Origin: a virus
Length of the DNA: 28,412 nucleotides
Reading direction: 5' to 3' (one strand)
IMG/VR virus record: IMGVR_UViG_3300004095_000009
Span: 1-28,412 of that record
Under the pieces are notes generated by a model, which was given only the letters and a program-made list of their open reading frames with translations, did not search any database and was not told where the DNA came from. The translations under genes and the position numbers were made by a program. Shown piece by piece: positions 538-25,881 of the stretch (its first letter is position 1; each line of letters begins with the position of its first letter).

Positions 538-3500
538 TTAACCAAAAATCAAAGCGCGACCAACCACTTGCGCCGAAGTAATACCACTTGTTCCATTAGA
601 TGCAGCAGTAATTTGTCCTTGAGCATTAACGGTTATGTTTGCTGTTGTATAACTACCCGGTGTTACAGCGGTATTAGCAATTGCCACTGTTACCGCAGCA
701 GAACCATTAAAGCTACTACCGGATAATCCCGTTCCAATTGTTAACGCATTCGTAGTATTTGCCGTGACAGTGGTGGACCCACCCAACGATACAGAATTAC
801 CGTTAATGGTTACAGATGAATTTGTTAATGATCCATTTCCAATATTGGTTATCGTATTGTTTGCGCCACTAATGGTTTTTCCGGTCAGCGTTTGCGTACC
901 AGTAAGCGTAGCCACCACTGTTGTATCAATTGCTGCCGTAATAGCAGCTGAACCGTTATAAGATGTACCAGTTAATCCTGTACCTAACGTAAGAGCAAAT
1001 GGATTGACCGCTGTAATCGTAGCTGAACCACCTAAACTAATTGCTGAACCGTTTACAGTTATTGAAGAATTAGCCAGTTGTGCATTAGTAATTGTTCCCG
1101 ATAAAGCTGTAGTAGGTATGGTTGTGGATGCGGTCATCGCACCAGTACCGTTTCCGTACACATAACCCGTTAAGGTAGTAGCACCTGTTCCACCATAACC
1201 AACCGCAATAGTTGCGCCATTCCATGTGGATGTTGTAATAACTCCCGTTGAAGATAAACTAAACAATGCAGTAGTTGCTACACCACCGTTATAAATAGTT
1301 AATCCATCACCTGTGCCAACACTAATACGTCCAAAACCCGTCGCGTAATCAACAACAATACCGTCACCAAATGAACCGGTATAAGAACCTGTTGAATACA
1401 AACCATTGCTCGCAACAATACTGGTTGCGGTAGCTGCGCCCAGCGATGGTGTAGTCAATGATGGGCTAGTTGACAATACGACACTGCCCGAGCCGGTTGT
1501 GCTTGCGCTTGATGCCGCCGTCAATTGGCCTTGAGCATTAACAGTCAAACTTGCAAGCGTATAAGAACCAGCTGTGACAGCTGTGTTGGAAAGTGCAATT
1601 GTTACGCCAGTTGAACCGTTGTAAGACGTACCGGACAAACCTGTGCCAATCGTCAACGTGTTTAAATTCAATCCAAGAGCCACGCCCGAAATAGTCGAAT
1701 TGGTTAATGCGCTATTTGGGATGTTGCTAAAAGTATTGGATGATCCTGACATTGTTTTATTTGTCAGGGTTTGTATTCCGGTAAGTGTTGTTACGACAGT
1801 GGTATCAATTGCTATTGTTACCGCAGTCGCTCCTGTATAACTTGTGCCGGTAAGTCCAGTACCGATTGTCAGTGCATTGGGATTGACAGCTGTAATTGTG
1901 CCTGAACCACCAAGACTAATTGCTGTTCCATTAACAGTAATGGACGAATTTGCTAATTGAGCATTTGTAATCGTCCCACTCAGAGCCGTCGTAGGAATGG
2001 TTGTAGATGCAGTCATTGCACCTGTACCATTGCCGTAAACATAACCAGTTAATGTCGTTGCTCCTGTACCGCCCGATGCTGCTCCTAAAGTACCCGCAAG
2101 CGTTACAGCACCCGATGTTGCAACGGTAGGGGTTAACCCTGATAGAGATGTTTGAAATGTAGATACACCAGCTCCGCCACCGTTTGATGCAGCAGTCACT
2201 CGACCTTGAGCATCAACCGTAATATTTGCACTGGTATAACTTCCGGCGGTAACAGTTGTATTGGTTAACGCAATCGTAGTCGCATTTGATCCGTTATACG
2301 ATGTTCCCGATAATCCTGTGCCAATAGTCAAAGTCGCTAAATTACTTCCAAGCGAAATGCCGGAAATAGTGCTATTTGCCAATTGTGAGTTGGTAATCGT
2401 ACCTGAAAGAGCTGTAGTAGGAATGGTCGTGCTGGCAGTCATTGCGCCAGTTCCATTGCCATACACATAGCCTGTCAGCGTTGTCGCTCCTGTGCCGCCA
2501 TTTGGTACACCTAATATACCAATAATGCTAGACGCATTGGTATATACGTTACGTACTGACGTAAAGAATTGACCGCTTGATGCGCTAGTGACGCAAAATC
2601 CAACCCGCACAGCATAATTTGGTGCAGTTGGCTGAGTGGTAATTAGGTTACCGGCAACCGCATAATCCAAATATAGGGTTTGACCAGCTGTAAATCCGGT
2701 CGTGTTGTAACCCATAACATCACCAAGAATAACAACATATCCATTTGATGACGCAGAAATATTTTGGTTAGCAACACCGATGACGTTTGAAGTTGTAAGG
2801 CTATTTGCTTGAGCAAGCGCAATTGTTGGCAAACCACCGGATTGACCGGTAATGTAAACAGGCTGGCCCAAATTAATTGTTGACTCAGTATTGTTATAAA
2901 CCTGCAACTGCACTTCTTGACCAATTACAATTTCATTATTTGTTACTCCATTGTAATAAGCCAATCCATCAGCAACACCGTCATACCAAACTTTGCCTTT
3001 CAAATAACTTGGCGCGGTTGATTGACTTGTAAATATTTCATTGTCTGAAATAGTTGGTTGGCTTAGTGTCGAAGCTATCGCGCGAACAAATGTACCCGAG
3101 CCAGTTCCGGTATATTCCGAGCTGGTCAAATGGTAATACTGATTAGCAGTACCACCCTGTAACCCCGACAATTGATCGTGTTGGGTAACTAATGGGGTTA
3201 CGACGTTCGATGCGTATTGAGTACCGTTATATGCAGCCGTAACCGTTGTGTTAGCTGTCGATGTTGTAAAACCAATTCCGCCCAGCGAATCCGTCGAATT
3301 AATCGTAAACGCTGGTTGAGTTGTTTGAACAATATACAAACCATAATTAGGCGTAATGTTTGTAATATTTGGTGAAGTCACCCCAAACAATAAATTCCAA
3401 ACCGAACCTGATACCGCCGTTTCGTTTGCGTATGTGCTTGGTACAGTAATCGTAACAACAGTATTTGATGACTTAGCGGTAATCTGATACAAGCCTTGCG

Positions 3501-13849: not shown

Positions 13850-14448
13850 ACGGGTGTTCCATTATTGAACGCCGACATCAATGCACCAAGCGTATTTTGT
13901 GGACCTTGCGATACCAAGGGCTGTATGAAATCAAATTGCCAAGCATTTTGTGGCTGCTGGCTGTCAGGTCGGGATACATCAATCAAGTTTGCCAAAATAC
14001 AATTCAGGTAAACGTAAGATGGTGTCGCAACGATATATGTGCCGCCAGCTTGATTATGCAAATCAAGAGCGTATTTCAATGCTGTAAACGTAATCATCTT
14101 TGACACATACCCGCCATTTTTGTTGGCAGGGCAATTCATCAGCATAGATATTTTCAATGGTTTGGCAATGATCGCATTAGCCGCATATTGCTGATTTGCA
14201 AATGGATAAGTTGCGATTTCATTTTCTACCAAGGAGCCGCCGGGTAATGGCCTGAAATGACCAAAAAAGTCATTTAGGTTTAATGGATTATTCCCGTTCA
14301 ATAAAGAAAAACCAAAATTGGCGGCTTCAGTAATTGCAATGATTGGTAACAATGTTCCCGGAATATTCGATGCAAGACCACCCGACAGTATGATCGGTGA
14401 AATTTCATAACCAAGCTGATAGACCGCTTGACCAATATTTGTAGACAT
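13846..14448 (-). CDS. Baseplate/distal tail protein, Dit-like
   Basis: A 200-residue protein right after the tape measure, its ATG overlapping that stop (TAATG). The N-terminus reads LGYEISPIILSGGLASNIPG, then TLLPIIAITEA; the core has PLPGGSLVENEIATYPFANQ, KPLKISMLMNCP, and a C-terminal QNAWQFDFIQPLVSQ. This pattern recurs in myophages of the E217/Pam3 group between tape measure and plug and has been grouped with Dit-like tail proteins. It probably forms the first ring below the tube and receives the hub. The location is secure. The Dit name is from memory and less so. Confidence 0.65.
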   Translation of the reverse strand: MSTNIGQAVYQLGYEISPIILSGGLASNIPGTLLPIIAITEAANFGFSLLNGNNPLNLNDFFGHFRPLPGGSLVENEIATYPFANQQYAANAIIAKPLKISMLMNCPANKNGGYVSKMITFTALKYALDLHNQAGGTYIVATPSYVYLNCILANLIDVSRPDSQQPQNAWQFDFIQPLVSQGPQNTLGALMSAFNNGTPV

Positions 14449-16325
14449 TACGAAACCCCTAGACCTGTGTAGTATCCACCCGCAGCCAACATATTAACCA
14501 TTGTGTCCTGTCCGGGTATCTTAGTCGTTGTTACATTCAGTGCAATTGGCGTTGGATTCCAATTAAGCATTCCTGTTTTTTGCGGTGCAGCGGATGATCC
14601 CGAAGGTGCGGGTGAAACTTTAGTACCACTTTGCAAATAATTTTGAATTTCTTCAGAAGATGCACTTGGCCCACCTTTTTCCAACCATGCCATTGCAGCC
14701 ATAATGTCGGACAAAGTTTTAGGATCAGACATATCAATTTGCTGATTTCTGCCAATACCTGTTTTTTTAGAAATAAAGTTTATGTACGCTTCAGTATTAT
14801 TTTCATTAGGAGGCGCCCATGTACTAATAATTTCTTCAAGTGTTTGCAGTTTTTTATATCCAGCAGCTGCCGATGTGCCAGCGCCATAGCTTTTTAATTG
14901 ATTTGCCATTGCAAGGAAACCCTCTTGCTGTGTGGCAAATTTAGCAAATCCTCCTTCACCTTTTACTGCACCGGGTTGACCAATAAATCTTAAATTTCCG
15001 GGATTGTTATTTCTTTCGGCTAGTGTTGCAGCATTACTTTGATTTCCTGAAGGATTCCAAAAATATCGAAGCCAACTACCGGATTGATCTTTTTGTTTAT
15101 TTTTCAATAATTCAAGTTGATCCGCTTCTCCGCCGGGTTTGTAATATTCTCTATTTTCTTGCGTCGCTGATTTGCTTGGCATAAATTTGCCTACAAATTC
15201 TAAAAATCCTTGCATTGTTTCTGCCATAGCTGAAACATTTTCGATAAATTTATCAACATCTTTTTTGATTTGATCGCCACCTAAATATTTAGCGAATTCT
15301 TCAATTTTTTGACCAAATACATTGATCCATTTTGGTAAATCAGGATTTTTCAAGAATGAAGCAACAAGATCAGAAAAGCTGTCAGCTAAATGACTAAGTG
15401 GTTCAGCAAGCGGAGCCAATCCATTAATGAAAGTGGTTTTGATCTTTTCGCCAGCTTCATTAATCGTGACGCTGAATTCTTGCCATTTTTTAAGAGTTTC
15501 ATCAATAACGTCAAAGGATTTCAAATCCCGCTGATATTTTTCTTCAGCGTCCTTTTGTTCCTTTTCCGTAATCTGAGCCATGCGCCGGGCAGTTTCGACG
15601 GTGATGCCCAACACATCCAAGCCTTGAGCTTGCAATCGCTGCTGTGCGGTAGCAGCTGGTCCTTGTTTGTAAACTTCACCCGCGCGACGCAATAGTTGTG
15701 GCAATAGTTCAGCTGCGCTTTGATTTGGATTCAGCCGGTTTGCACCAAATGCCCATTGTTTTGTAACGTCGGTTTGAGCAGCTGACAATGATCCGAGCAA
15801 AGGATCAACATCGGCATAACGACCATAACCGACGCGAGCTGCGCGAAGTTCTGCGGACGATACGCCTAAACCTTGTGACTGGCGGCGCAAATCGCCAATA
15901 TTAGCCGCGAACGATGTCAGGCCAAACAAACCCCCAGCCCCACCTAATAAACCCGCAGCAAGGCCGATTCCTGACCACCGCAGAAGGTTTAAAGTAGTTG
16001 ATGCAACGCTTTTACCAATGTTGGCAGTTGTTTTGCCGATATTCTCAAATGTGCGCTGAGTATCTTTGGCAATTTTGTTGATTTTTGATTGTTCGGCTGA
16101 AACTTTTGTTTGAGCTGCATAGATGTTGCTCATCGCTGTTGCAGCTTGAACCAAATTCTTTACAGCAGAATCAAAACCTTTGGCGCTTTGTTGAGTAGCC
16201 GAACCAACCTTACCCCACTGGCCCGGCATCTTCCCAAGTTGTGACTGATATTTTTCAAATAGCGCAGCGAATTCTTTAAACGCTTCGTCGTGGATTTCAA
16301 TATCAATGACTGATTTTGTTGCCAT
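14448..16325 (-). CDS. Tape measure protein with C-terminal lysozyme-like domain
   Basis: The 625-residue protein is helical and coiled-coil-rich (about 5-110 and 250-300), with a hydrophobic Gly/Leu-rich stretch at about 115-140, typical of tape measures that set tail length and pass through the host membrane. At about 435-565 there is an embedded domain with ERNNNPGNLRF, GFAKFATQQEGFLAMANQL, a TLEEIISTWAPPNENNTEAY segment and FISKKTGIG. This pattern occurs in virion-associated lysozyme-like proteins. Peptidoglycan cleavage at entry is inferred, and catalytic residues cannot be confirmed by eye. At roughly 1.5 angstrom per residue the tail would be short, under 100 nm. It follows the frameshifted chaperone, the classic order, and that product overlaps its start. 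Confidence 0.82.
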   Translation of the reverse strand: MATKSVIDIEIHDEAFKEFAALFEKYQSQLGKMPGQWGKVGSATQQSAKGFDSAVKNLVQAATAMSNIYAAQTKVSAEQSKINKIAKDTQRTFENIGKTTANIGKSVASTTLNLLRWSGIGLAAGLLGGAGGLFGLTSFAANIGDLRRQSQGLGVSSAELRAARVGYGRYADVDPLLGSLSAAQTDVTKQWAFGANRLNPNQSAAELLPQLLRRAGEVYKQGPAATAQQRLQAQGLDVLGITVETARRMAQITEKEQKDAEEKYQRDLKSFDVIDETLKKWQEFSVTINEAGEKIKTTFINGLAPLAEPLSHLADSFSDLVASFLKNPDLPKWINVFGQKIEEFAKYLGGDQIKKDVDKFIENVSAMAETMQGFLEFVGKFMPSKSATQENREYYKPGGEADQLELLKNKQKDQSGSWLRYFWNPSGNQSNAATLAERNNNPGNLRFIGQPGAVKGEGGFAKFATQQEGFLAMANQLKSYGAGTSAAAGYKKLQTLEEIISTWAPPNENNTEAYINFISKKTGIGRNQQIDMSDPKTLSDIMAAMAWLEKGGPSASSEEIQNYLQSGTKVSPAPSGSSAAPQKTGMLNWNPTPIALNVTTTKIPGQDTMVNMLAAGGYYTGLGVS

Positions 16326-17003
16326 AGATTGCTCTTAATAAATGCCTTTGACGAAATTCGTGTGCGCTTGACTTGAATTCTATATCAACATCCTCGAAAA
16401 ACCTTGAAAAACCTTCCCCTGAAACATAATCTAAACAGGCAGCGACGATGTGATCTCCATCTCGCCAGTATTCTCTACCTCTGTCGATGTCTTCAAGGAA
16501 TTGACGTATTCCGTAGAATCCAATGATGTTGTGTGCGAACCCCATAAGCCGTTCACTGTATCCATGATTCCCTGCACTTGCGCCTTTTTGTTCATCATGG
16601 ACACGCAAGTAAAAAAAATCAGCTCCCCCTGTATCTCCGCGACGGTTTCCTTATCCAATACTTCCTTGTCAATAGCGACCTGAAGTGGAATACTTTGCCA
16701 TCCCTTTTTACCGGGCATGAATACATTCGACAAACGAATGATTTCATTGACTAAACCATTACCAACACCGCCCGGACCGGACCACAAACCCATGTCTTCA
16801 GCGATTTGCTTTAGCATCAGGTATGCAATTCTAGGCCCAGCAATCGCCCCCAATCCCTGAGAGAAGATTCCGGCAAATGTCTTGGAAATAACCAAGAAAT
16901 ATTGCTCGAAAACATCCCGCGAGATCGGGGTGCTGTGAACGTATATTTGTCCTTTTTCCGATTCAATCGGAATTACCAAGTTCAAAGCTCGATTGATTTT
17001 CAC
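16303..17003 (-). CDS. Frameshifted long form of the tail assembly chaperone (predicted, 233 aa)
   Basis: Codons 1-131 of the chaperone run in frame 0 to the TTT at 16613-16611. If the ribosome slips back one base it reads TAC TTG CGT onward and stays open for 102 residues to the TGA at 16305-16303. The new tail contains RVHDEQKGAS, IIGFYGIRQFLEDIDRG and FEDVDIEFKSSAHEF. The long form thus overlaps the tape measure start by 23 bases. In lambda (G and GT) and many tailed phages the gene between tube and tape measure makes such a short and long pair. The long form bridges the tube subunit and the tape measure during assembly and is absent from the virion. Production of this form is predicted, not shown. 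Confidence 0.75.
16431..17003 (-). CDS. Tail assembly chaperone, short form (190 aa)
   Basis: The start is GTG, with AGGA eight bases upstream. The protein begins KINRALNLVIPIESEKGQIY and contains VFEQYFLVISKTFAGIF, GPRIAYLMLKQIAED, an Asn/Gly loop and VFMPGKKGWQSIPLQVAIDK, then a mostly helical half. It lies between the tail tube gene and the tape measure, where tail assembly chaperones are encoded. No virion-type repeat or enzyme motif is present. The C-terminal 59 residues follow the T8 slippery run and are replaced in the frameshifted form. The role is cytoplasmic: holding the tape measure while tube subunits polymerise around it. Confidence 0.78.
   Translation of the reverse strand: MKINRALNLVIPIESEKGQIYVHSTPISRDVFEQYFLVISKTFAGIFSQGLGAIAGPRIAYLMLKQIAEDMGLWSGPGGVGNGLVNEIIRLSNVFMPGKKGWQSIPLQVAIDKEVLDKETVAEIQGELIFFTCVSMMNKKAQVQGIMDTVNGLWGSHTTSLDSTEYVNSLKTSTEVENTGEMEITSSLPV
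16561..16629 (-). promoter_or_regulatory. Programmed -1 frameshift signal
   Basis: Reading the minus strand: GGGGGAG at 16629-16623 resembles an internal Shine-Dalgarno. After CTGA comes a run of eight T at 16618-16611, in which frame-0 codons ATT TTT TTT give a T TTT TTT slip heptamer. Immediately downstream ACTTGCG (16610-16604) is the exact complement of CGCAAGT (16582-16576), and TCCATGAT (16601-16594) is the exact complement of ATCATGGA (16568-16561). The pairs interleave, so together they would form an H-type pseudoknot. Alternatively the second pair, extendable to ten pairs with one G-U, gives a hairpin 7 bases after the slip site. The -1 frame is open from before the T run to 16303. 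Confidence 0.78.
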
Positions 17004-17026: not shown

Positions 17027-17476
17027 CTACGAAATTAAATCGAAAAGTGAGCTGTTGACGTTGTAGATACCAGCCAAGGTAACAACAAAGCCGGGCTGCA
17101 CACCATCAAATGTTACATCCCGAACCCCCTTCAGGATGCAATTGACGAGTGCATAGTCACTCAAAGCTGCCGAATCAGTAATGATCGAAATGTCGCCAAC
17201 ATTGACGTTGGTTTGAATTTGCGTTTTATACACATCAGCAAGGCTTTGCGATTTCAGCAAGTGCAGCGTCACCGTAGCCATTTGGTATGGTTCGGGTGAA
17301 GTTACGCCTCCGGTTAGCGTTGGGATAAGCAAACCAGCATCGCCATCAAATGCAATACTAATTGCTTCCTTTGCTAAGTAGGGGGCGGTAATGTTCAAGG
17401 TTGCGTTACTCGCATAAACTACAGAACCCCGTAGCCTGTTAAGAGTGCCTTGATTAATTAATGGATTTCCAGCCAT
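17027..17476 (-). CDS. Tail tube protein
   Basis: A 149-residue protein immediately after the sheath gene, with a strong AAGGA ribosome site. It reads GNPLINQGTLNRLRGSVVYA, then APYLAKEAISIAFDGDAG, PEPYQMATVTLHLLKSQSLA, TDSAALSDYALVNCILKGVR and GFVVTLAGIYNVNSSLF. The size, the beta-rich character, the NxGTLNRLRGS-type N-terminus and the order sheath-tube-chaperone-tape measure match myophage tail tube subunits. The tube is the rigid inner channel for DNA. The next gene, in the same direction, is the chaperone needed to polymerise it. Confidence 0.83.
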   Translation of the reverse strand: MAGNPLINQGTLNRLRGSVVYASNATLNITAPYLAKEAISIAFDGDAGLLIPTLTGGVTSPEPYQMATVTLHLLKSQSLADVYKTQIQTNVNVGDISIITDSAALSDYALVNCILKGVRDVTFDGVQPGFVVTLAGIYNVNSSLFDLIS

Positions 17477-17489
17477 GATCTATTTTCCT

Positions 17490-18791
17490 TTATGCGAGAG
17501 CGAATGAGCTGACATTCACGTTGAAAATGATCTGAGTGAAGCCGCGAGCAGGTGTATAAGTGACCGAAAGGCCAGCATATTTACCAATCGCATAATCGCT
17601 CGGATTATCGGTCACATAGGTCGTGAAAGGAACCGCTTGAACCGTTACTGGACCCAACACTAGACCAAATGCAATGCCACTATTCATTGTGCCTTGTGAC
17701 ACTTTTTGTAGCGTATTGATACCAGCTTGGTTGTAATACAACGGATTGATCGGGTTATTCGAACCGTTAATGATTGCATTCGAAATGCTGATATTTACGT
17801 TGATTTGAACCCAATCCACCGAATACCAGTAAGTGTAGTCGTTGCCATCAGCTGTAACACCCCAAAGAATCAGGGTATTGCTAATGCCGCCTTCCGCACC
17901 AGTTCCGATGTAGTTACAGTTCGCAGTACGCAGTAATTGCTGCTGCGCTTGAGTGCCGGTGAATGCCGTAACCCCAACCACATAAGAAAACGCCATTGGC
18001 GTGACTTTGTTGGTATTGGAAGGGTTGTAATTCATTGCCACCCAAAGCATTGCAGCTGGCGACCATTCGGTGCTTGGAGCTGTAACATCTTGACACAATG
18101 AAACAATCGATTTCGTACTGGTGAAGGTCGAATAATTGGCAAGCGTCGCTTTAATCCAAAAGTAGACCGAAGCAGTTGTTGCATCCCAAGTGCGAGCAAA
18201 TGCCAAAAATGTAGAATCATTCGACATTTCCACTGGCAAAGCGTAAGCATAAAATTTATGCAAGTTTGCGTTGATGTAGGTATTTAAAGCAGTAATGCCT
18301 TGAGCGCCTGTTCCAACGCCAAGCTCCAACACATAAATCGCATTTGTTTGACCTTGTGCGAAATAAGTGGTTGCCATTGCAGTCAGCTCGGATACATCTT
18401 CAAGCGTAACAACGCCCTGTACCGTCACAGAGCCGGGGTTTGATACCAACGGATAAGTAAAGGTATTGGTTCCAGTTGAAGTGGCCTGAACCACGCCGTT
18501 GTAACCAGCAGGTGTTACGCCAGCGATTACGACGGGAACGGTGTCACTCGTTGGAATGCCATGTGCCGTAGCGGTAGTGACCGTTACAGTACCTGTACCC
18601 CAAGTCATCGAGCTAATCGTGACCGCACCACTAAGGATGGAAGTTAAATCGGTAAGTTGAGTAAGCAGAGCAGTATTACCCGCCCCGATGGTCGTAGCGC
18701 CTTGCGAAACCAAAGCACCTGTCCGCTGTAGCTGACTTGGTGCTGGCGCAATATTTTGCGTTACGTTAACGGTAACGATTTGAGTAGTCAT
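17490..18791 (-). CDS. Tail sheath protein with inserted surface module
   Basis: The 433-residue protein begins TTQIVTVNVTQNIAPAPSQL and RTGALVSQGATTI, as in sheath-like proteins of Burkholderia and Pseudomonas myophages. Residues 59-126 are an Ig/FCCH-like module also found in the gpJ-like protein. The body includes ELTAMATTYFAQGQTNAIYV, VLELGVGTGAQGITALNTYI and a C-terminal PSDYAIGKYAGLSVTYTPAR-type region ending in beta strands. These resemble the sheath domains that form the contractile outer layer and linking arms. It is followed by the tube gene, as in essentially all myophages. The insert near the N-terminus would presumably project from the sheath surface. Confidence 0.78.
   Translation of the reverse strand: MTTQIVTVNVTQNIAPAPSQLQRTGALVSQGATTIGAGNTALLTQLTDLTSILSGAVTISSMTWGTGTVTVTTATAHGIPTSDTVPVVIAGVTPAGYNGVVQATSTGTNTFTYPLVSNPGSVTVQGVVTLEDVSELTAMATTYFAQGQTNAIYVLELGVGTGAQGITALNTYINANLHKFYAYALPVEMSNDSTFLAFARTWDATTASVYFWIKATLANYSTFTSTKSIVSLCQDVTAPSTEWSPAAMLWVAMNYNPSNTNKVTPMAFSYVVGVTAFTGTQAQQQLLRTANCNYIGTGAEGGISNTLILWGVTADGNDYTYWYSVDWVQINVNISISNAIINGSNNPINPLYYNQAGINTLQKVSQGTMNSGIAFGLVLGPVTVQAVPFTTYVTDNPSDYAIGKYAGLSVTYTPARGFTQIIFNVNVSSFALA
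18414..18614 (-). repeat. Ig/FCCH-like module, copy in the sheath gene
   Basis: Residues 59-126 of the sheath correspond to residues 323-389 of the gpJ-like protein; see 10160-10360. The module contains the motif AHG, then GVTP, YNG, NTFTYPLV and NPG, recurrent in phage surface modules. Confidence 0.88.
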
Positions 18792-23334: not shown

Positions 23335-24198
23335 TTATCGCTTGTTGTTGTTCAAATTGAATTCTTTGACGCGCATAGAAGGCACTTTAAATGCGTCCAT
23401 CCAGCCAAAGCCACCCTTGAATTTCGTAATCACACGACCAGCGCGATCACGCTCATGGATTTCAATTTCCTGATCTGCTGCATAGGTCAATGGTGACTTA
23501 GCGGCAGCTTGTGCGTCAGCAAAAATCTGCTTCTCAGCAAGCGACAACAATTTTGCATCTTTGATAGCTGCAAGGTTGATGTCCTTATATGCGTCGGAGT
23601 AGGCTTGCAAGCCGCGCAATAGGCGTTTACGGTATGACAACAAACTTTCGCCCTTCAAAGGACGGGAAGCTGATTTGCCAAACGATGCCATTACGCTGTC
23701 AGCTTTAGCTTGAGCGTCAGCATATTTAGCTTCTTCTTCATCGGCCTTCATAGCTTCTTCTTCATCATCGCACATTGCATCATCATCAGGCTTCATTTCG
23801 CCAGCTGGACCATGCTCTTTAGGATCAGAGCCTTCAGCGTCGTCTTTACGCTTTTTGGCATCTTTACGATGTTTCATGTCGTCGTCTTTACGATCATCTT
23901 CATCGTCATCGTCGCACATGGCATCATCGTCGTCGTCTTTGCGTTTTTTGTCCATCTTACGCATCATTTCGCGTTTAGCTTCAGATTCGGATTCTTCTTC
24001 CTCATCATCGTCCTTACGCATACGATCATCATCATCTTTTTTGGCCTTTTTCTTGTCAGCAGCTGTGACCAGTGGGGGCGCGGGTAAAGTTTTCTCCATT
24101 TCGTCAACGCGAGCAATAACATTGCCCAACATTGATAGAATGGCATCGAGTTTATCGCCTTGGGCATCTGCCTTCGGCGCGGTAGTATTGTCTGACAT
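23335..24198 (-). CDS. Nested head scaffold protein from an internal in-frame start (predicted, 287 aa)
   Basis: Within the composite gene, Met562 (ATG 24198-24196) is preceded by GAGGT at 24210-24206, seven bases away, a better ribosome site than that of the full gene. The product would start MSDNTTAPKADAQGDKLDAI, with a helical segment (ILSMLGNVIARVDEMEKTLP), a long Asp/Glu/Lys-rich region and the conserved C-terminus. This is the usual composition of phage scaffolding proteins. Nested in-frame scaffold genes are known in lambda (Nu3 within C). The internal start lies just after the protease domain ends, which is where such a start should be. Expression is predicted only. Confidence 0.6.
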   Translation of the reverse strand: MSDNTTAPKADAQGDKLDAILSMLGNVIARVDEMEKTLPAPPLVTAADKKKAKKDDDDRMRKDDDEEEESESEAKREMMRKMDKKRKDDDDDAMCDDDDEDDRKDDDMKHRKDAKKRKDDAEGSDPKEHGPAGEMKPDDDAMCDDEEEAMKADEEEAKYADAQAKADSVMASFGKSASRPLKGESLLSYRKRLLRGLQAYSDAYKDINLAAIKDAKLLSLAEKQIFADAQAAAKSPLTYAADQEIEIHERDRAGRVITKFKGGFGWMDAFKVPSMRVKEFNLNNNKR

Positions 24199-25881
24199 AG
24201 CAGATACCTCAGGGTTAGTTAGTAAAACTCCGGCTGGATCGCCACCTTTGTCCCAAACTCCTTTAGAGCCACGAGCTTTCGTAACGATTGCTATATGGTC
24301 CAAAAGGAAGGGTACACCTTCAATCAGAAGCGGTTCTCCGTTTTCTGTCGTTAGTGTAGTATTTCCGGCGGTATTGTCAAATACCACCGATGGCGAAGTG
24401 CTAATTTCTCCTTCACAAATCTCGTCAATAGAGCTTTGATCGTAAATCTTAGCAATTCCCCATACTTCATCGCCCTTGATGTACGGTAGCATCACCGTCC
24501 CGACAGCTCGGTCTTTGAATTCTTTGGAAGTTAAAACGGCTGATTCAGGATGGTCCATGATGACAACCAAACCCTGACAGCGCTTTAAAAATTCGTCATT
24601 GAGATATAGCGACGGATCGCGCCAAACGTGTTCGCCAATGCTTGAACGATAAGCTAATCCGGTCCCGGTAATGCGGATCGATAGCAACATCACGTTGGCG
24701 TACATTTGCGGACTAGGCAATACGCCTTCGCGCATCAGCTCCGCCATATCAAATTCTGTTTTTGCCATCGCTACACGAAAGGCCACATCAAGGCCGGGAT
24801 GCAATGGCATGGGAGGATTTTTAGGATCGCACCAATCGTAACCACTTGATTCGTAATTCAGCTTGACATCGCCCTTATTTACGTCGCGAGCAATATATGT
24901 GCAGAATTGACCATCGTCGTGCAACACTTCGAGCTTGCCTTCATACTTTAGGCCGGTTTCTTCTTCGCATTCGCGACGGGCGCATTCCTCAAGTGTTTCA
25001 TCATGTTTTTGATGACCACCGGGTACGCACCAAGTGCCGGGGAAATCACCGCCACCCATGCCACGACGAATAAGCAGCGTTTCGCCTTCGGGTGTCATAA
25101 ACATAATCCCGGACGAACGACCAATTGGACCATCGTGCATAATCGGATCGACAGCAAGCGGAGCAGCTGCTACTGGATCGGCGGCATCAGGCACACAGTT
25201 TGGCACTTGTTTGCCGTCTTTTTCCTTCATACCCAATTGCTTATATCCCTGCCAGCAAGGATCGTCATCAGGTATAGCGGACACATAATCTAAAATACTA
25301 TCGCAGATTTTTGAAAGATCGCCTTTCAAATCATCATCACATTTCCATTTTCTAAGCGCTTTGTTGATTCTCGAATCAGGGTCGTGCGCCGTTTTGGATG
25401 ACGTTAATTTTGCTTTCATACCCTTCATGCGGGCGCAGAATGATGCTTTTCTTGATCCGCCTTCGGGTTGGGGCGCTTTTAAATGTGCGCCATGAGTTTT
25501 GTTGTACGATTCGCGGCCTTTTTCATTCAAGCCGCCATTTTTGTTTTTGCCTTCCTTGGTTTGCCATGCCTCGGAATCATCCTCAAAGCGCGGAACAGTT
25601 TCGTTCTCATCGTCTTTGAGTTCACTTAGATGTTTGAAAATTTCGGCAAGTTCGTTCGACAAACCTTTTAATTCGTTGCGCTTTTCACCAGCGCGAACCA
25701 TGATATCGGAATCTTCCTTTTTATTTTTTTCGGTCGGCAAAGCCAGCAATGATGGTGCTTCCATCGTATCTTTGCTGTGTTTAATAAATTTTTTGGCGGC
25801 GGCTTTCGGAATACCGATGTTGCTCTTACCGGTAGCGGCGGCGTACATGGCTTTGCGTTGTTTTTCCGAAGCGAATGGCAT
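23335..25881 (-). CDS. Composite head protein: Nudix hydrolase, DUF2213-like prohead protease and acidic scaffold (848 aa)
   Basis: Residues 1-36 hold PFASEKQRKAMYAAATGKS, a motif seen at the start of phage structural polyproteins. Residues 103-181 resemble DUF6321 (NKNGGLNEKGRESYN, SFCARMKGMK). A QLGMKEKDGKQVPNCVP motif lies at 215-231. Residues about 254-370 form a Nudix domain with a complete box: Gly289, Glu295, Arg303, Glu304, Glu307, Glu308, Gly310. Residues about 373-550 match DUF2213 prohead proteases (SSIGEHVWRDP, VIMDHPES with His444, STSPSV with Ser494). Residues 606-725 are extremely acidic and Lys-rich, scaffold-like. A conserved C-terminus follows. In related phages protease and scaffold are often one gene, so the Nudix and DUF6321-like inserts are the unusual part. 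The start is two bases after the previous stop with a weak ribosome site, suggesting coupling. Confidence 0.85.
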   Translation of the reverse strand: MPFASEKQRKAMYAAATGKSNIGIPKAAAKKFIKHSKDTMEAPSLLALPTEKNKKEDSDIMVRAGEKRNELKGLSNELAEIFKHLSELKDDENETVPRFEDDSEAWQTKEGKNKNGGLNEKGRESYNKTHGAHLKAPQPEGGSRKASFCARMKGMKAKLTSSKTAHDPDSRINKALRKWKCDDDLKGDLSKICDSILDYVSAIPDDDPCWQGYKQLGMKEKDGKQVPNCVPDAADPVAAAPLAVDPIMHDGPIGRSSGIMFMTPEGETLLIRRGMGGGDFPGTWCVPGGHQKHDETLEECARRECEEETGLKYEGKLEVLHDDGQFCTYIARDVNKGDVKLNYESSGYDWCDPKNPPMPLHPGLDVAFRVAMAKTEFDMAELMREGVLPSPQMYANVMLLSIRITGTGLAYRSSIGEHVWRDPSLYLNDEFLKRCQGLVVIMDHPESAVLTSKEFKDRAVGTVMLPYIKGDEVWGIAKIYDQSSIDEICEGEISTSPSVVFDNTAGNTTLTTENGEPLLIEGVPFLLDHIAIVTKARGSKGVWDKGGDPAGVLLTNPEVSAMSDNTTAPKADAQGDKLDAILSMLGNVIARVDEMEKTLPAPPLVTAADKKKAKKDDDDRMRKDDDEEEESESEAKREMMRKMDKKRKDDDDDAMCDDDDEDDRKDDDMKHRKDAKKRKDDAEGSDPKEHGPAGEMKPDDDAMCDDEEEAMKADEEEAKYADAQAKADSVMASFGKSASRPLKGESLLSYRKRLLRGLQAYSDAYKDINLAAIKDAKLLSLAEKQIFADAQAAAKSPLTYAADQEIEIHERDRAGRVITKFKGGFGWMDAFKVPSMRVKEFNLNNNKR

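Follow-up and report, generated by a model that had tools for sequence, protein, structure and literature searches.

The gene that lies between the tail tube and tape measure genes of this viral DNA raises the question of whether it encodes one tail assembly chaperone or two, the second being made by ribosomes that change frame within the gene. We addressed this question in the whole 28,412-nt stretch of IMG/VR record IMGVR_UViG_3300004095_000009 (hereafter the window) and in homologues of its chaperone locus. An earlier note on this DNA had proposed a dnaX-like three-part frameshift signal at 16561-16629, consisting of an SD-like GGGGGAG, a slippery T run and downstream segments that might form a pseudoknot.

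Gene layout and predicted products

The window and the phage records L029-L036 share the gene order sheath-tube-chaperone-tape measure, which places the chaperone gene between the major tail (tube) and tape measure genes, as in G/GT-type systems (Table 1). GGGGGAG, the T8 run and the in-frame T_TTT_TTT are all present on the minus strand where the earlier note had put them, and translation confirmed its ORF lengths of 190 and 233 aa as well as a 102-residue -1 frame that reaches the start of the tape measure gene. This frame ends at a stop codon at 16303, beyond the tape measure ATG at 16325, and the predicted fusion comprises 131 + 102 = 233 aa. The T8 run at 16618..16611 is the sole sense-strand run of seven or more T residues within the 28 kb window.

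Two other proteins encoded in the window are worth recording. The tape measure protein (14448-16325, minus strand) contains a lysozyme/transglycosylase-like stretch at about residues 430-565 that matches PHROG 7182/873, and relatives of this protein are annotated as lytic transglycosylase. Beside the capsid genes, positions 23335-25881 (minus strand) encode an 848-aa protein that combines DUF6321, NUDIX and DUF2213 in one chain, an unusual fusion.

Table 1. Positions of the chaperone locus features in the window.
Feature	Position	Strand	Remarks
Zero-frame tail assembly chaperone ORF, 'G' part	17003..16431	minus	190 aa, GTG start; PHROG 11810
SD-like GGGGGAG	16629..16623	minus	Gly-Glu codons; 5 nt from heptamer; unsupported as stimulator
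T8 run	16618..16611	minus	zero-frame reading ATT TTT TTT ACT
Slippery heptamer T_TTT_TTT	16617..16611	minus	in-frame X_XXY_YYZ
-1 frame extension, 'T' part	16611..16303	minus	102 aa + stop; PHROG 14324
Spacer, slip site to hairpin	16610..16605	minus	6 nt
Hairpin 5' arm GTGTCCATGAT	16604..16594	minus	11 bp; probable clade-specific stimulator
Hairpin 3' arm ATCATGGATAC	16568..16558	minus	25-nt loop between arms
Tape measure protein	14448..16325	minus	ATG at 16325; start overlaps end of -1 extension
Sheath / tube genes beside chaperone	17490-18791 / 17027-17476

Conservation of the slip site, the -1 frame and the extension

Homologues were collected from viral contigs, species genomes and phage records and duplicates were dropped, giving 79 distinct homologues that form 24 clades at 75% identity and diverge to about 27% identity. 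All 79 encode a Phe-Phe pair as TTT TTT and 78 contain T_TTT_TTT (T8 in 74, T7 in 4), so that, as in G/GT-type genes, a conserved heptamer lies in frame within the 3' portion of the upstream ORF. All 79 also have an open -1 frame, with fusion lengths of 223-245 aa. A comparison of the T run and both frames in homologues had been suggested as a check of the original proposal, and these counts bear it out. With each clade represented by a single sequence and by its own codon frequencies, we calculated that this heptamer conservation would arise by chance with a probability of about 10^-29.6, a figure that overstates the case because the clades are treated as independent. As the clade-wise chance is this small, codon use cannot account for conservation of the heptamer. 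In the Shewanella clade (61-65% GC), the other Phe codons of the gene are TTC in 15 of 15 cases, and TTT TTT is nonetheless retained in 7 of 7. Across 461 kb of loci, 78 of the 85 sense-strand runs of seven or more T residues are located at the slip site.

A second scan used the extension as its only seed and was therefore blind to the slip site. Among the at least 10 new haplotypes that it recovered, 7 carry the same kind of heptamer and one more has T9; most of these sequences have T8, with T7 in L169 and T_TTT_TTC in L170. In L180 (about 2490-2502), which has T9, the chaperone and the extension are fused in a single frame, which could be due to a sequencing error in the homopolymer or could represent a natural variant restricted to the long form. 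The canonical heptamer is missing in three distinct homologues. L026 (around 3380-3392) has C_TTT_TTT, with the -1 frame and hairpin intact, and L166 (about 2420-2440) and L167 (about 2435-2456) read GTA TAT TTT ACA, with T4 only, and keep the extension. All three retain T_TTT, where one tRNA could slip, and in E. coli the class of U_UU.Y tetramers ranks second (PMC4066793). Production of the extension in L166 and L167 would need such a single-tRNA slip or another route; in both, a hairpin lies almost directly after the slip position, and that of L166 is stable (z -1.4, modestly below shuffles).

Of 5426 complete E. coli genomes, 90 carry close copies of the locus, and eight E. coli prophage copies, that of the laboratory strain E. 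coli W included, have T8 and the extension in 8 of 8 cases. A decayed prophage copy in Yersinia similis (L124, 2440-2720) has lost the N-terminus of the chaperone and kept T8 and the extension frame. As a separate matter, records OK094664 and OP650936, named 'Hujiaoplasma phage zrk29-1' and Shewanella phage vB_Sb_QDWS, agree in length (47902) and have identical chaperones, and the host entry of 'Hujiaoplasma phage zrk29-1' (a Tenericutes bacterium) looks doubtful.

The extension itself was found by tblastn in all of the viral-contig loci and in nearly all of the phage loci, and the Shewanella copy is read in its -1 frame. It is alignable across 29 members, all of which (29/29) match PHROG 14324. 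In the window's clade, pN/pS is 0.24 where only the -1 frame codes, and zero-frame synonymous change declines from 0.44 before the slip site to 0.29 after it, with values of 0.18-0.23 in the last 40 codons. Together, these comparisons indicate that the extension is a real, conserved protein domain under purifying selection, and the overlapping -1 ORF has in this respect the conserved C-terminal domain of a G/GT-type gene.

A conserved domain of this kind could also be encoded by a separate gene with its own start codon, such as the TTG at 16608, and require no frameshift; many members have a TTG or ATG 8 nt into the -1 frame. However, when we searched the -1 frame of the Yersinia phage records L032 and L036 for ATG, GTG or TTG, we found none, several further members have no start before about 180 nt of this frame, and the TTG at 16608 is missing from the close relatives L010, L017 and L021. 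As L032 and L036 have no possible start codon in the -1 frame, a separate gene is excluded as a general reading, and we give it almost no weight for the window. Like that of G/GT-type genes, the -1 ORF has no independent start, there being none in L032 and L036 and an unconserved TTG elsewhere. The sequence data strongly support the alternative gene model, in which 190-aa and 233-aa chaperones would be produced via programmed -1 frameshifting in the tail-chaperone position.

A fusion of the same kind could be obtained if RNA polymerase slipped on T8 to yield mRNA with one U fewer (or two extra), which would then be translated normally. Most members have a homopolymeric run of 8, runs of A or T, which are under-represented in E. 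coli genes, may cause RNA polymerase to slip (PMC4066793), and both Thermus dnaX and Shigella spa13 use transcriptional slippage (PMC5009743). Against this explanation, members with T7, T6 and even T4 still have the -1 extension; the run ends on a zero-frame codon boundary, or fits T_TTT_TTC (L170), as tandem tRNA slippage requires; and a hairpin 6 nt downstream is where a ribosomal stimulator is expected. We consider transcriptional slippage improbable as the source of the fusion, and a combined reading, in which the homopolymer acts as a regulator that permits slippage of ribosomes as well as of RNA polymerase, with a length that evolves in opposition to hairpin strength, is in our view rather unlikely. 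If the combined reading were true, the short-to-long ratio would be tuned by interchangeable parts, for example T_TTT plus a hairpin in L166 and L167, or T9 in L180. Programmed -1 ribosomal frameshifting on T_TTT_TTT is, on the evidence of these comparisons, the highly probable explanation for the organization of this gene.

Candidate stimulators of ribosomal frameshifting

Downstream of the heptamer, GTGTCCATGAT and ATCATGGATAC form an 11-bp stem that contains one G-U pair, and its inner part is the TCCATGAT/ATCATGGA stem of the earlier note. This stem exists as a hairpin and is conserved in its own clade, but it has 11 bp, lies 6 nt from the slip site instead of 7-9 and ends at 16558, outside the interval first given for the signal. 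The 6-nt spacer falls in the usual range of 5-8 nt (PMC4066793). When the 62 nt downstream were shuffled with dinucleotides preserved, an 8-bp Watson-Crick stem arose in 0.7% of cases. Of 87 windows along the gene, the one at +6 has the lowest mean z in the clade of the window (-3.9), a location with which L026 and L027 agree. Like the heptamer, the -1 frame and the extension, the hairpin is conserved: in 13 distinct sequences of the window's clade, 98.6% of cells in the 11-bp hairpin are paired, compared to at most 49% in controls slid by 1-3 columns, and RNAalifold independently recovers the same hairpin.

One pair of the hairpin covaries (GC, AU, GU and UA), and the codons involved specify -1 frame residues Val, Ile or Phe on one side and Tyr, His or Asn on the other. 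As these changes alter -1 frame amino acids, pairing was kept while the protein changed, with the covariation amounting to one pair and few events. When both proteins must stay the same, the window's clade permits just 2-8 nucleotide sequences over 60 nt; most of the stem is thus not free to vary, and this dual-coding null leaves too few alternatives for a demonstration of selection on the hairpin. We conclude that selection on the hairpin RNA beyond dual coding is likely, and that the hairpin probably stimulates frameshifting in the window's clade. Downstream structure was not found family-wide, mean z being near 0 beyond the window's clade and its nearest neighbors. Only the window's clade has this stem-loop 5-9 nt past the slip site, as in dnaX-type signals; in L067, another stem, of 12 bp, lies roughly as far from the slip site.

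As a variant of the frameshifting explanation, the stimulator could be an H-type pseudoknot formed by ACTTGCG/CGCAAGT together with TCCATGAT/ATCATGGA, the interleaved pairs to which the earlier note had drawn attention. Both complementary pairs do exist, and interleaved 7+8 stems were found in 0 of 3000 dinucleotide shuffles of the 62 nt downstream. However, besides the window, only its closest relative (L002) has ACTTGCG/CGCAAGT in full, and the stem is already broken in L006; across the clade, 69% of the cells of this first stem are paired, and 80 of 500 shuffles scored as high. Its geometry suggests that the first stem would begin without a spacer, inside the mRNA channel of the ribosome, and that the full 11-bp second stem would leave 0 nucleotides for loop 1. 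We rejected the pseudoknot on the grounds that its first stem lacks conservation and that the fold is doubtful on steric grounds, and we judge it very unlikely to be the stimulator.

A dnaX-type signal includes an upstream SD stimulator at about 10 nt. In a second variant of the frameshifting explanation, the SD-like GGGGGAG, the slippery run and the stem-loop would act jointly as such a trio. GGGGGAG is predicted to pair with the anti-SD at -9.4 kcal/mol, and most relatives have GGTGA or GGCGA at this position. This pairing is, however, no better than expected from codon choice (mean of -8.1 kcal/mol for the six upstream codons vs -7.7 for random synonymous codons encoding the same peptide), many members, close relatives among them, have a weak GGCGAA (-4.6 kcal/mol in the close relatives), the Shewanella clade is without Gly-Glu at this position, and the spacing of 5 nt between GGGGGAG and the heptamer is outside the 6-17 nt range that has been searched as stimulatory (PMC4066793). 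With no selection beyond the codons and a 5-nt spacing, the SD stimulator was rejected; GGGGGAG is best seen as Gly-Glu codons, and the trio has little probability in our assessment. The description of the locus as a dnaX-like three-part signal is therefore one that we do not retain, as its SD-like part does not rise above codon use and is badly spaced and its pseudoknot is not conserved.

Proposed mechanism and relation to known systems

From these data we infer a scheme for the slippage event, its rate, the role of the stimulator and the function in assembly. In this scheme, the majority of ribosomes would start at the GTG at 17003, terminate at 16431 and yield the 190-aa chaperone. In a minority of ribosomes, the tRNA-Phe molecules occupying the P and A sites at T_TTT_TTT would move back one base, TAC would be read next in the -1 frame, and the product would be a fusion of the first 131 residues to the 102-residue C-terminal domain. 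U_UU.U_UU.U shifts at >0.1% in E. coli without a stimulator (PMC4066793), and low shift rates suffice for lambda, where the ratio is 30:1 (PMC5009743). In the window's clade, the hairpin would probably pause the ribosome and raise the rate, and in the rest of the family the heptamer seems to work with no conserved stimulator. If the two products behave like lambda gpG and gpGT, the short form may coat the tape measure protein and the fusion may recruit the tail tube protein.

Gene position, the -1 extension and the overlap of this extension with the start of the tape measure gene all correspond to lambda G/GT (PMC5009743) and P2 E/E+E' (PMC3091744). Among named Foldseek matches to the structural model of the chaperone (pLDDT 84), the best is a tail assembly chaperone from a myovirus (E 8.4e-3, prob 0.99), and several further weak matches to viral models are also named tail assembly chaperone. 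Sequence searches of Pfam and PDB returned no match linking either protein to a solved chaperone, a PDB fold search returned no usable match to a solved structure, and the extension model, which is of low confidence, returned no Foldseek match. For these reasons, the molecular roles that we suggest for the chaperone and the fusion are drawn by analogy.

Both PHROG 11810 (chaperones) and PHROG 14324 (extensions) are listed as 'unknown function'. The RefSeq records that we inspected contain the short ORF only, as a hypothetical protein, and every one of them misses the -1 extension; in an E. coli RefSeq locus (L212, 1501-2182), the annotated part is the 205-aa zero-frame ORF only. We found no prior description of this chaperone family in the literature searched, and one of the 5 prophage clusters in PMC4066793 may represent it. 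The kind of frameshift is already known, and this phage and prophage family was previously unannotated for it. Our analysis assigns a likely function and a corrected gene model with two products to the PHROG 11810/14324 family, whose many diverged members constitute a natural series on the tuning of an all-U heptamer with and without a hairpin.

The lambda gpG/gpGT frameshift, for which PMC5009743 and PMC3091744 both cite Xu, Hendrix and Duda (2004), shares with the present system its place adjoining the tape measure gene, its -1 direction and its pair of short and C-terminally extended products. Unlike lambda, the system described here has an all-T slip site, a sheath (contractile) tail, a 102-aa extension and a hairpin conserved in one clade, and no sequence homology to lambda was detected. 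The lambda case has been reviewed (PMC5009743). E. coli dnaX likewise combines a slippery heptamer with a downstream stem-loop, whereas here an SD stimulator is unsupported, the heptamer is all T and the shifted product is longer, not shorter. The G/T genes of phage 9g also have a U-run slip site in a tail-chaperone gene (CCCUUUUUUU; PMC4276943), but 9g is a siphovirus and its shift is -2 rather than the -1 proposed here. In P2, E and E+E' are produced at TTTTTTG with no downstream structure (PMC3091744). This system and ours have in common a contractile tail, a T-rich heptamer, a position between the tube and tape measure genes and a -1 shift; they differ in the heptamer (T_TTT_TTT followed by A here, T_TTT_TTG in P2), in the length of the chaperone (190 aa here, 91 in P2) and in the 11-bp hairpin of the window's clade, as P2 and its relatives are without downstream structure. 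From these comparisons, we conclude that the present system most likely works like, and is, a tail-chaperone frameshift of the lambda G/GT or P2 E/E+E' type.
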